A stretch of 64,000 nucleotides of DNA from Maricaulis salignorans (lineage in GTDB: Bacteria > Pseudomonadota > Alphaproteobacteria > Caulobacterales > Maricaulaceae). The notes under the pieces were generated by a model. The model was not told the DNA's origin. It saw only the letters and a list, made by a program, of their open reading frames with translations, and did not search any database. The stretch lies in contig NZ_FNHG01000016.1 in assembly GCF_900103475.1 (NCBI RefSeq), positions 1 through 64,000 of the forward strand, given 5' to 3'. Made by a program: the position numbers and the translations under genes. Below are positions 346 to 4,993 of this stretch, one piece after another; position 1 is the stretch's first letter, and the number at the start of each line of letters is the position of its first letter.

Positions 346-1473
346 TTAGGGCTGTGCGGGCTCATCGTCCAGCTCGGCCGGGTCGAAGCGGCCGATAATT
401 CCGCCAAAGGCCGAGCCCAGCCATAATACGCCGCCCGGCCCCACCGTGACGCTGGAGAGATAGTTCAGCGCGCTGTCCGGATCGTGGAAGGCGTCACGGA
501 TCTGGCCGTCGCTCTCATTGATACGCAGGACGAAGCCGCGTGGCCGCGAATCTGTCGGGCGCAACCATTGTGGCAATTTGATCAGGACTTGCGTCAGGCC
601 CGGATTGCGGTGGGCGGTGGCGAGCAGGCGTGAACGCCGCGTTGCCATCGCCACGATCACATTGCCCTTGCCGTCGACGCTGAGGCCGGTAGGCATGCCG
701 GGCAGGTTCTTGGCGAAAACCTCGATCTCCCCGCGCCGTGGCCCGGCGATCCAGATCCGCTGGATCATGTAGCGGAAGCTTTCACTGACGAACAGGGACT
801 GTCCATCCGACGCAATGGCGATTCCGTTGGGGTAGTAGAGCCGGTCACGAATCTGGATCGCCTCACGCGATTGCGGGTCCCAGGCGTAGACCAGCCCGTT
901 TGGCCGGTTCTCCAGCATGTCATAATAGTAGCCCGGCCGGCGAGACGCATGATCCCACCGCGTCGAAGAATCGGTGAAATAGATTGTCCCGTCCTCTGCA
1001 ACGGCCAGATTGGTCAGGTGGCCGAAGGATTGGGACGTGCTTCCCGAGCTGAGCGTGCGGACTTCGAGGGTGGTCAGATTGAGCGAATGGAGGCTGCTGG
1101 CGGCCGCAATCGCCAACGTCGATTCATCGATCCAGGCCAGGCCGTAGATGGGTTCATCGGTGATGTGAGCGAGATGTTCGGGCTGGATGCCATTCTCCGC
1201 AATCCCGGCTCGAAGGCGCATGATATCGCCGTCCACACTGCCGAAATAGACCATGCCATCGGTTGACACGGCGACGCTGCGCGCAGTGCCCGGATCGCCA
1301 ACCGGGTAGAGCGTCGCAGCGGCAAGATCGTCATCGGGTGCGGTTGGGCCCGACAAGGCCGGGGCTGCCGGTTCGTCCCAGCGGATCGGATCGATGGGCG
1401 ACGGCCACATCAACCAGAGGATCAAGAAGGTCAATCCGAGCCCGCAGGGGATGGCGAGATATCTCAAAATCAT
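346..1473 (-). CDS. Strictosidine-synthase / SMP-30-like beta-propeller protein
   Basis: A 375-residue protein with an N-terminal hydrophobic segment (about residues 5-24, one membrane anchor or uncleaved signal), then a six-bladed propeller of the strictosidine synthase/gluconolactonase superfamily. The recognisable blocks are YYPNGIAIASDGQSLFVSES followed by a W-x-AGPRRG turn, and GMPTGLSVDGKGNVIVAMA, which match the APMAP/Str_synth pattern rather than classic SMP-30. Members hydrolyse lactones or esters using a central metal ion; the substrate here is unknown. It lies on the minus strand just downstream of the cupin oxygenase (55-bp gap), so the two may be co-transcribed. Confidence 0.8.
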   Translation of the reverse strand: MILRYLAIPCGLGLTFLILWLMWPSPIDPIRWDEPAAPALSGPTAPDDDLAAATLYPVGDPGTARSVAVSTDGMVYFGSVDGDIMRLRAGIAENGIQPEHLAHITDEPIYGLAWIDESTLAIAAASSLHSLNLTTLEVRTLSSGSTSQSFGHLTNLAVAEDGTIYFTDSSTRWDHASRRPGYYYDMLENRPNGLVYAWDPQSREAIQIRDRLYYPNGIAIASDGQSLFVSESFRYMIQRIWIAGPRRGEIEVFAKNLPGMPTGLSVDGKGNVIVAMATRRSRLLATAHRNPGLTQVLIKLPQWLRPTDSRPRGFVLRINESDGQIRDAFHDPDSALNYLSSVTVGPGGVLWLGSAFGGIIGRFDPAELDDEPAQP

Positions 1474-2868: not shown

Positions 2869-3561
2869 TCAGTTTCCGCGACCTCGACCGATCGGATCGG
2901 CGTAGGAGCCGGTATCACTGTCGGTGACATTGCGACCGCGACCGCTGCGACCACGTCCACGGCCAACCGGGTCGGCATAGCTGCCGCTGTCATTGTCGGT
3001 GATGCCGCCGCCGCGACCGCGTCCAACCGGATCGGAATAGGCACCGGTATCGCTGTCGGTGATGCCACCGCCGGTATTGCCGCGCCCGCGCCCTGGCGGG
3101 TCGGCGTAACGGCCTGAATCACTGTCAGTGATACGGCTGCCGCCGCTACCACCGCGGCCGCGTCCGACCGGGTCGGAATAATTGCCGGTATCGCTATCGG
3201 TGATGCCGCTACTTCCACGTCCACGACCGACGGGATCGGCATAATTGCCTGTGTCGCTGTCGGTGACGCCGCCGCCGCGCCCACGTCCGACGGGGTCGGA
3301 ATAGCTGCCAGTGTCGGCATCGGTTACGCCGCCACCACGGCCATAGCCGGCCTGGTCGGCATAGCGGCCTGAATCGCTGTCCGTGACGCCGCCGGCACCA
3401 CGATAACCGCCGCCTCCGCCGCCAACGGGATCGTAGGGGTCTGCGTCTGTATACCCTGTCGTCGTGCAGGCCGAGACCACGCCGGTCGCGCCGACCGTCA
3501 GTGAAGCCCCGGCAACACGGGTCAGGAAGGATCGTCTGCTCAGTTTACCACGTTTGGCCAT
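2869..3561 (-). CDS. Tat-exported lipoprotein with TDSDTG-RGRG repeats (paralogue 1)
   Basis: A 230-residue protein that I do not recognise as a named family. It starts MAKRGKLSRRSFLTR, a twin-arginine signal, followed by a hydrophobic stretch and a lipobox VSAC (Cys32), so a Tat-exported lipoprotein is inferred. After a degenerate unit (TDADPYDPVG) come eight units of the form V/I-TDSDTG-x-Y-x-DPVGRGRG, each about 19-25 residues, joined by Gly/Ser/Arg linkers. The D-x-D-x-G-x3-D pattern recalls short Ca-binding loops, but that is inference. RBS GGGAGA lies 7-8 bases before the ATG. It is the longest of three adjacent paralogues. Confidence 0.85.
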   Translation of the reverse strand: MAKRGKLSRRSFLTRVAGASLTVGATGVVSACTTTGYTDADPYDPVGGGGGGYRGAGGVTDSDSGRYADQAGYGRGGGVTDADTGSYSDPVGRGRGGGVTDSDTGNYADPVGRGRGSSGITDSDTGNYSDPVGRGRGGSGGSRITDSDSGRYADPPGRGRGNTGGGITDSDTGAYSDPVGRGRGGGITDNDSGSYADPVGRGRGRSGRGRNVTDSDTGSYADPIGRGRGN

Positions 3562-3602
3562 TGCAAGATCTCCCTCATCAGAAGGTTTGGCGTCAAGAAA
3601 TT

Positions 3603-3631
3603 CGGGCGAGCCGCGTGGTGCGGCTCGCCCG
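3603..3631 (-). terminator. GC hairpin between paralogues 1 and 2
   Basis: Perfect 12-bp arms CGGGCGAGCCGC (3603-3614) and GCGGCTCGCCCG (3620-3631) with loop GTGGT lie 25 bases after the stop of the 3656-4279 gene. On the minus strand the stem is followed by AATTTCTTGAC, a partly T-rich tract, so an intrinsic terminator is plausible. Confidence 0.7.
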
Positions 3632-3655
3632 CAAATTCAGTCGCGAGCAAAGGCT

Positions 3656-4279
3656 CTAATAGCCAGGACGTCCACGTCCGCCCGGATCCGAGCATCCGCC
3701 GGAATCACTGTCGGAAGTCCCCTGGCGAACAGGGCCACGGCCGCGTCCACCCGGATCGGCGCAGCCGCCGGTATCGCTATCGGTAAAGTTCTGCGAACCG
3801 CGTCCGTTTCCGACCGGGTCGTTTGGATCGGAGTCGGTGAGGCCGGTTCTGTTGCCGCCGCGACCACGGCCGGCAGGATCGGCGTAACTGCCGCTGTCGC
3901 CGTCGGTCACGCCGGTCCGTCCACCGCGTCCGCGATTGGCTGGATCAGCATAGCTGCCTGTATCACTGTCGGTGACGCCGGTGCTGCCGCGGCCACGTCC
4001 GGCAGGGTCAGCCCAATTGCCGGTGTCATTATCAGTGTAGCCGGTGCTGCCGCGTCCATACCCGCCGCGATCCGCGTTCGAACCGCTATCGCTGTCGGTC
4101 AGGCCGGTGCGCCCGTATCCGGCGCGGTCGGAGTAATTCCCCGTATCGCTGTCCGTGCGGCCGGTATAGCGCTGGGCCTCCGAACCGCCCGTCACAACAG
4201 CGGCGGCGCCGGTTGCGACTGCTGCACCCGCAACGCTCGTCAGAAACGAACGGCGGCTGAGCTTTCCCTTTTTAGCCAT
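3656..4279 (-). CDS. Tat-exported repeat protein (paralogue 2)
   Basis: A 207-residue paralogue beginning MAKKGKLSRRSFLTSVAG, with the same twin-arginine signal as its neighbours but no lipobox Cys, so it is probably released to the periplasm or outside. About seven full TDSDTG-x-Y-x-DPAGRGRG units and one shortened unit (LTDSDPNDPVGNGRG) follow. The last two units carry Cys in place of the aromatic residue (TDSDTGGCADPGG and SDSDSGGCSDPGG), which could allow a disulfide or cross-link. RBS AAAGGA precedes the ATG. Function is unknown; the whole mature chain is low-complexity Gly/Asp/Arg. Confidence 0.83.
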   Translation of the reverse strand: MAKKGKLSRRSFLTSVAGAAVATGAAAVVTGGSEAQRYTGRTDSDTGNYSDRAGYGRTGLTDSDSGSNADRGGYGRGSTGYTDNDTGNWADPAGRGRGSTGVTDSDTGSYADPANRGRGGRTGVTDGDSGSYADPAGRGRGGNRTGLTDSDPNDPVGNGRGSQNFTDSDTGGCADPGGRGRGPVRQGTSDSDSGGCSDPGGRGRPGY

Positions 4280-4348
4280 GCCATTTTCCTTTGAGAACTA
4301 ATCCGACGCCTCCCCAGGGGCCGGCATGTCATCCCTCACAAGATGAAC

Positions 4349-4376
4349 GGGTTCGGACGGAGCACCGCCCGAACCC
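4349..4376 (-). terminator. Hairpin after third Tat-repeat gene
   Basis: Arms GGGTTCGG (4349-4356) and CCGAACCC (4369-4376) form an 8-bp stem that extends inward by CGG/CCG after one mismatch. It lies just past the stop of the 4391-4735 gene on the minus strand. Each of the three paralogues therefore has its own 3' hairpin. Confidence 0.6.
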
Positions 4377-4390
4377 TATAACTGTCTGGT

Positions 4391-4735
4391 TTAGCCGCCG
4401 CGTCCACGACCGGCTGGATCGGAGCAGCTGCCCCGGTCCGCATCGGTGTAGCCGGTATTGCCGCGACCGTGGCCGCCAGTATCGGCGCAGGCGCCGCTGT
4501 CAGCATCGGTATAGCCGGTGCTGCCCGTGCCATGGCCGGCCTGATCGGCGTAGCTGCCGGAATCGCTGTCTGTGATCGCCGTGCGGGCATTGCCGGCGCT
4601 GTCGGATGGGTCAGCATCGGTCGTGCGCTGGAGCATGGTCGCTCCGGCGACGGCGCCAACAGCACCAACGGCGATCGTGCCACCAGCAACGCGGGTCAGA
4701 AACGAGCGACGGCTCATCTTGCCTTTTTTAGCCAT
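4391..4735 (-). CDS. Tat-exported repeat protein (paralogue 3, short)
   Basis: A 114-residue short paralogue. The signal MAKKGKMSRRSFLTRVAGG is nearly identical to those of the two neighbours, and a hydrophobic stretch follows with no lipobox. The mature part has one shortened unit (TTDADPSDSAG) and three full units: TDSDSGSYADQ, TDADSGACADT and TDADRGSCSDPAGRGRG. Two of the three full units carry Cys. RBS AGGGGA lies about 8 bases before the ATG. It is the first of the three in transcription order, but each gene has its own RBS and 3' hairpin, so separate transcripts are possible. Confidence 0.82.
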   Translation of the reverse strand: MAKKGKMSRRSFLTRVAGGTIAVGAVGAVAGATMLQRTTDADPSDSAGNARTAITDSDSGSYADQAGHGTGSTGYTDADSGACADTGGHGRGNTGYTDADRGSCSDPAGRGRGG

Positions 4736-4879: not shown

Positions 4880-4894
4880 TGCGAACAATTCGCA
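4880..4894. promoter_or_regulatory. Palindrome TGCGAA-CAA-TTCGCA in divergent intergenic region
   Basis: A perfect 6-bp inverted repeat with a 3-base centre lies in the AT-richer 305-bp region (4736-5040) between the divergent Tat-repeat gene and ruvC. The size and symmetry suit a dimeric regulator site, but no protein can be assigned. Apart from this and the LexA box, I saw no gene in the region. Confidence 0.3.
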
Positions 4895-4978: not shown

Positions 4979-4993
4979 GTTCACCTCTTGTTC
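4979..4993 (+). promoter_or_regulatory. LexA (SOS) box upstream of ruvC
   Basis: The sequence GTTC-ACCTCTT-GTTC fits the alphaproteobacterial LexA consensus GTTC-N7-GTTC exactly and ends 47 bases before the ruvC start. Its second half overlaps a possible -35 (TTGTTC) that lies 17 bases before CTAACT, so LexA binding would block the promoter. Such an 8-base match is expected about twice by chance in a window this size (both strands), but its position before a classic SOS target makes it credible. Confidence 0.7.

Follow-up and report, generated by a model that had tools for sequence, protein, structure and literature searches.

Tat-exported Asp/Gly/Arg repeat proteins and a linked JmjC_2 oxygenase: a proposed modification-and-export system

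What is the role of three adjacent bacterial genes whose products consist almost wholly of one short Asp/Gly/Arg repeat, and does another protein act upon them? The genes lie on the minus strand within the stretch of DNA analysed here (the window; 64,000 nucleotides of Maricaulis salignorans, contig NZ_FNHG01000016.1) and encode repeat protein 1 (4391-4735; 114 amino acids, three full units and one short), repeat protein 2 (3656-4279; 207 amino acids, seven full and one short) and repeat protein 3 (2869-3561; 230 amino acids, eight full and one short). An initial annotation had placed the genes at these positions and counted 18 full and three short units, and both placement and count are exact. 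It had also described a shared twin-arginine signal and a single lipoprotein, as we find: the N-terminus MAK(K/R)GK(M/L)SRRSFLT, a canonical Tat motif, is common to all three proteins, with SRRSFL, of the form S/T-R-R-x-F-L, and a hydrophobic stretch in each, R9 and R10 of the signal are invariant in alignment A2, and only repeat protein 3 carries a lipobox (VSAC). The family was not recognised at that stage, and searches of Pfam and NCBIfam with the repeat proteins return little beyond the Tat signal, every match being under the curated cut-off. This family of Tat-exported Asp/Gly/Arg repeat proteins is real and unnamed. What the annotation left out of the locus was the adjacent partner gene (1529-2716), which lies directly downstream of the repeat genes on the same strand and encodes a JmjC_2 oxygenase.

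Over 690 units, the full unit has the consensus T-D-S-D-[ST]-G-x-Y-A-D-P-x-G-x-G-R-G and the short unit T-D-S-D-P-x-D-P-x-G-x-G-R-G (TDSDTGSYADPVGRGRGG gives a single unit as a one-unit peptide), with Lys essentially absent, Glu scarce and His almost absent. When one position was freed at a time and all others were fixed, Asp was found in 621/621 units at each of D2, D4 and D10, and Gly in 621/632 units at G6, 605/623 at G13 and 621/624 at G15, whilst R16 was kept in 586/621 (94%) and Y8 in 403/621; the set holds 421 distinct 16-residue units, includes related species and is not one of independent events. Where R16 is replaced (35/621 units), the substitutes are T, D, Q, V, H, Y and A. Synonymous codons differ between units at invariant residues (11 GAT and 7 GAC for D4, four Gly codons for G13) and dN/dS is 0.05-0.15 for orthologous pairs of repeat genes; selection therefore acts on the protein, and the array is neither a product of chance nor a DNA-level repeat but is under strong protein-level selection.

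The D-x-D-x-G-x3-D segment of the unit resembles calcium loops, which provides one possible account of the locus, namely that the repeats are calcium loops of an EF-hand, thrombospondin-3 or dockerin-like kind and that the JmjC gene shares their regulon or hitchhikes beside them. Cys residues often bracket one unit, the C-terminal one in 50/117 repeat proteins, as if every unit formed a closed loop, which would suit such an account; the repeats of repeat protein 3 have no Cys, and many members have few or none. However, no Pfam calcium-repeat profile (EF-hand, TSP3, dockerin or RTX) matches the repeats, and solved structures yield weak low-complexity matches at most as relatives. Furthermore, calcium loops usually tolerate N, S or E at some ligand positions, whereas here Asp is kept at all three positions without exception. 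We regard the calcium account as improbable. An AF2 model of the repeat has a pLDDT of 46 and gives no information on its fold. Two relatives (L043:6884-7432 and L061:6638-7171) end in a charged, coiled-coil-like tail (ENARIRAENRRVEEENRRIRAMERQRDQLETEMQALGG).

The partner gene encodes a protein of 395 amino acids that matches Pfam JmjC_2 (E 4.8e-28), a predicted Fe(II)/2-oxoglutarate (2OG) oxygenase and the predicted modifier of the repeats; it is the only JmjC_2 gene in this genome. Its Fe ligands are H146, D148 and H209 and its 2OG lysine is K161, and these residues, together with N132 and Y134, are invariant in 51/51 oxygenase sequences. AF2 models the protein with confidence (pLDDT 94.5), and a Foldseek search with the model finds 4ccn (E 2.1e-28, TM 0.77, 447 columns), the order of closeness being NO66, then MINA53, YcfD, YxbC and FIH. 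Thus the JmjC_2 domain with its HxD...H iron site, the 2OG lysine and the full-length architecture are all shared with the ROX enzymes NO66/RIOX1, MINA53/RIOX2 and RoxA/YcfD (JmjC_2, PF08007), although identity to NO66 is 22-23%. In NO66 the residues reported to touch the histidine substrate are R297, Y328 and S421 (PMC6006756), and one of the three is kept here (Y328 is Y134), with R297 replaced by V103 and S421 by an invariant glycine (G225). The oxygenase therefore looks like a ROX-type hydroxylase with a predicted pocket unlike that of the histidyl enzymes, as only the Tyr of the contact residues is retained.

Orthologues of this oxygenase follow the repeats from genome to genome. Among 99 genomes sampled from the family, 30 hold both repeats and JmjC orthologue (E < 1e-97 in 30/30), none the repeats only, one the JmjC gene only and 68 neither (Fisher 1.5e-24), and among 385 genomes of the class the corresponding numbers are 11, none, one and 373 (Fisher 2e-20); genomes within each sample share ancestry, so these values overstate the number of independent events, and the family, class and phylum samples overlap by a few genomes. 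In the phylum sample (398 genomes), all seven repeat genomes fall among the eight with the JmjC gene, and in the eighth (G777) a short two-unit Tat protein adjoins the enzyme (L137). The JmjC gene is without visible repeats in two genomes only, G002 and G300, the latter being the JmjC-only genome of the class sample, and in both it sits at a contig edge.

This bears upon a reading of the JmjC protein as a common ribosomal oxygenase, adjacent by chance to unrelated envelope proteins. Its fold is the same as that of NO66, MINA53 and YcfD and it is the sole JmjC_2 protein of this genome, both as such a role would have it, but the orthologue is tied to the repeats and absent from 68/99 family genomes, certain other genomes with repeats encode a further JmjC_2 protein that is only distantly related (about 30% identity), and two of the three NO66 contacts are changed. 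The phyletic linkage to the repeats thus argues against a ribosomal-protein substrate, and we consider a chance neighbour of this kind very unlikely indeed.

The linkage also outlasts changes of arrangement. Repeat genes and enzyme are adjacent in about ten lineages in which order, strand and other neighbours vary, and wherever the neighbourhood is intact the enzyme has a repeat gene beside it: most lineages have the repeats upstream of the enzyme and on its strand, L111 and L114 have them downstream, and in L137 and L138 the two are divergent. A repeat gene was found apart from the enzyme only where the genome encodes the enzyme elsewhere, as in the L075 and L078 genomes, in which it lies beside other repeat genes; repeat loci are often several per genome among the 30 family genomes that have them. 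Homologues of the repeats occur in Maricaulis, Brevundimonas, Aurantiacibacter, Parasphingopyxis, Sphingomonadaceae and other Sphingomonadales, and none was found on a plasmid. Across the lineages, we found neither a third gene nor a protease shared by the loci, and the members inspected carry a twin-arginine signal. Linkage retained through rearrangement is the strongest evidence that the two genes form a functional pair, and hitchhiking, as the calcium account would have it, fails to explain it.

A gene for a Strictosidine synthase/SMP-30-like beta-propeller (346-1473, minus strand; Str_synth E 5e-17) was considered as a core component and rejected as clade-limited and optional: most Maricaulis-type operons have it 3' of the JmjC gene, at a gap of 34-124 bases or, in four genomes, of about 2.1 kb, and no lineage outside that clade does. 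In lineages other than Maricaulis, a TLxDxDI(V)-like motif precedes the twin arginine and may be a leader recognised by the enzyme (L112:5836-6108, L111:4585-5859, L108:7871-8650, L114:7259-7744 and L137:7462-7986).

We propose, with a probability of roughly 0.7, that the locus encodes an enzyme-substrate-export core, in which the repeat protein is the substrate, the JmjC protein a cytoplasmic hydroxylase and Tat the exporter. The repeat protein would be made in the cytoplasm, where the JmjC_2 oxygenase would hydroxylate residues of the repeat using Fe(II), 2-oxoglutarate and O2; the modified and possibly metal-loaded chain would then leave by Tat, a route that suits a protein modified or loaded with metal in the cytoplasm beforehand, to become either a free periplasmic protein or an anchored lipoprotein. 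Although co-occurrence by itself is no proof of an enzyme-substrate relation, we judge it very probable that the repeat proteins are the substrate of the oxygenase. A periplasmic location is supported by one relative (L143:7355-8164), a repeat protein with a PG_binding_1 domain at its C-terminus (E 1.6e-18), whose genome has two further repeat loci. The earlier idea of a surface or periplasmic matrix gains as to the periplasmic location, whereas a surface matrix, like the binding of polyanions by the RGRG segments, is unsupported so far; as a structural reading that idea had missed the obligate JmjC_2 partner and an iron-type operator, and is here revised to an enzyme-modified exported protein.

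As to the residue that would be modified, the likeliest target is the invariant Asp, giving beta-hydroxyaspartate, and it is favoured because the three Asp never vary whilst R16 does, and because the L112 units adjoining the enzyme gene (SDYDPNDPIGGG and SDTDPVDPIGEG) are without Arg16. However, the ROX enzymes known so far act on His or Arg rather than Asp, and the invariant Asp might bind metal directly with no need of modification, so that we put the chances for Asp at about even. The enzyme could instead hydroxylate Arg16 of each unit to C-3 hydroxyarginine, in the way that E. coli RoxA/YcfD acts on an Arg of L16, leaving the Asp as metal or structural ligands. This would accord with the conservation of R16 within a G-x-G-R-G context and with an oxygenase fold related to YcfD, which is an arginyl hydroxylase (PMC9994133, PMC6006756), but it sits poorly with the 35 units lacking R16 and with the partner units of L112. 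Moreover, the enzyme is nearer to NO66 and MINA53, both of which rejected Arg substituted for His (PMC9994133). Arg16 thus appears a rather unlikely target.

Evidence on what the product might do comes from the region 5' of the repeat operon, which contains Fur-type palindromes, among them an iron box TGCGAACAATTCGCA (minus strand TGCGAATTGTTCGCA) at 4880-4894, upstream of the first repeat gene. The motif TGMRAATNATTYKCA, allowing at most one mismatch, has seven sites in five places of the 3.1 Mb genome, against none for a reversed control; this degenerate consensus was picked after the palindromes had been viewed, a choice on which neither the exact E. coli-type boxes nor the companions found genome-wide depend. 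Apart from 4880-4894 there are four such places: one next to a TonB receptor gene with PepSY_TM, one next to an operon for ExbB/ExbD, one next to a TonB receptor gene with DUF6607 and one next to a gene for a beta-CASP nuclease; the type of box predicted upstream of the repeats is hence also found beside genes of iron uptake in this genome. The best site has p <= 0.045 against shuffles in 17/20 Maricaulis-type operons, and exact TGATAATGATTATCA is present in L045-L048. Since the operon lies under a Fur-type box, its product in the Maricaulis-type clade is probably made under iron limitation. A general control of the module by Fur was rejected: outside that clade no Fur-type box was seen except at L108 and at an orphan repeat locus (L041), and therefore iron control, as predicted from these sites, is lineage-specific. 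At L165:3011-6213, tandem Fur-type boxes serve both a DUF6607 gene and the TonB receptor gene divergent from it, which suggests that DUF6607 takes part in iron uptake.

The product of the Maricaulis-type operon, with its predicted iron box, may bind or buffer iron. Metal binding by the repeats, which had been suggested with calcium to the fore, is plausible, and the iron-regulation signal points to iron and not calcium. An iron-binding product is also suggested because beta-hydroxyaspartate is an established iron ligand of siderophores such as cupriachelin (PMC12971057, PMC10484230), a ligand that the repeats would share should Asp hydroxylation be right, although those siderophores are small nonribosomal peptides and the repeats are genetically encoded proteins. 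Iron binding as the function of the repeats is nonetheless a tentative assignment, and the fuller proposition of a protein siderophore or iron buffer, with JmjC-made beta-hydroxyaspartate, many Fe(III) ligands per chain and induction by iron starvation in some lineages, seems to us doubtful.

Several known systems invite comparison. The ROX enzymes act on ribosomal proteins, whereas the oxygenase described here is tied to a Tat-exported repeat protein. Biphenomycin-type RiPP clusters likewise encode a JmjC/cupin-like oxygenase (BipG/BpmG, PbsQ) alongside its precursor, as a precursor gene here adjoins a dedicated modifying enzyme, but they target Orn in a short core, use several enzymes and end in proteolysis (PMC12707348, PMC12257519), in contrast to the single enzyme, long tandem repeats and Tat export of the present system, in which no further gene is shared. 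Bufferins and other MNIO RiPPs with signal peptides resemble the system in being exported, enzyme-modified, metal-handling proteins from a small gene set; they depend, however, on an MNIO enzyme with a partner protein, Cys targets, a Sec signal and copper (PMC12452194), whereas here the JmjC_2 gene is the sole gene common across lineages, the signal is Tat, many members have few or no Cys and control is of an iron type. The nearest systems are the ROX and biphenomycin-type JmjC hydroxylases in chemistry and the bufferins in logic; in neither case do enzyme class, target, route of export and architecture all agree. We found no description of a JmjC and Tat-exported repeat pair in the open-licence literature searched.

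The unit to study is the repeats together with the JmjC enzyme, and not the repeats alone; with two genes only, it should be easy to reconstitute. If correct, our proposal would add a new class of substrate for the JmjC_2 oxygenases of bacteria, which until now have been known chiefly as hydroxylases of ribosomal proteins, and would provide a modified protein with a signal peptide that leaves by Tat rather than Sec. It would also offer a rationale for the use of Tat, in that modification or metal loading precedes export, and would tie the module to iron in one clade of marine bacteria.

Lastly, the operon has strong predicted hairpins on the minus strand in each of its gaps: between repeat genes 1 and 2 (4349-4376; fold of 4280-4390, z -2.15), between repeat genes 2 and 3 (3603-3631; fold of 3562-3655, z -4.05) and between repeat gene 3 and the JmjC gene (2820-2849; fold of 2717-2866, z -3.38), the last being a possible attenuator or processing site. 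Such hairpins are also present in some relatives (L044, L053 and L056) but not all, and may set the ratio of substrate to enzyme. At the edge of the window, an open reading frame (34-327) resembles the tail of an IS5-type transposase. The intergenic region of the repeat operon is shared with an ordinary ruvCAB promoter, whose alphaproteobacterial LexA (SOS) box, GTTC-N7-GTTC, lies at 4979-4993, about 50 bases 5' of ruvC (5041).
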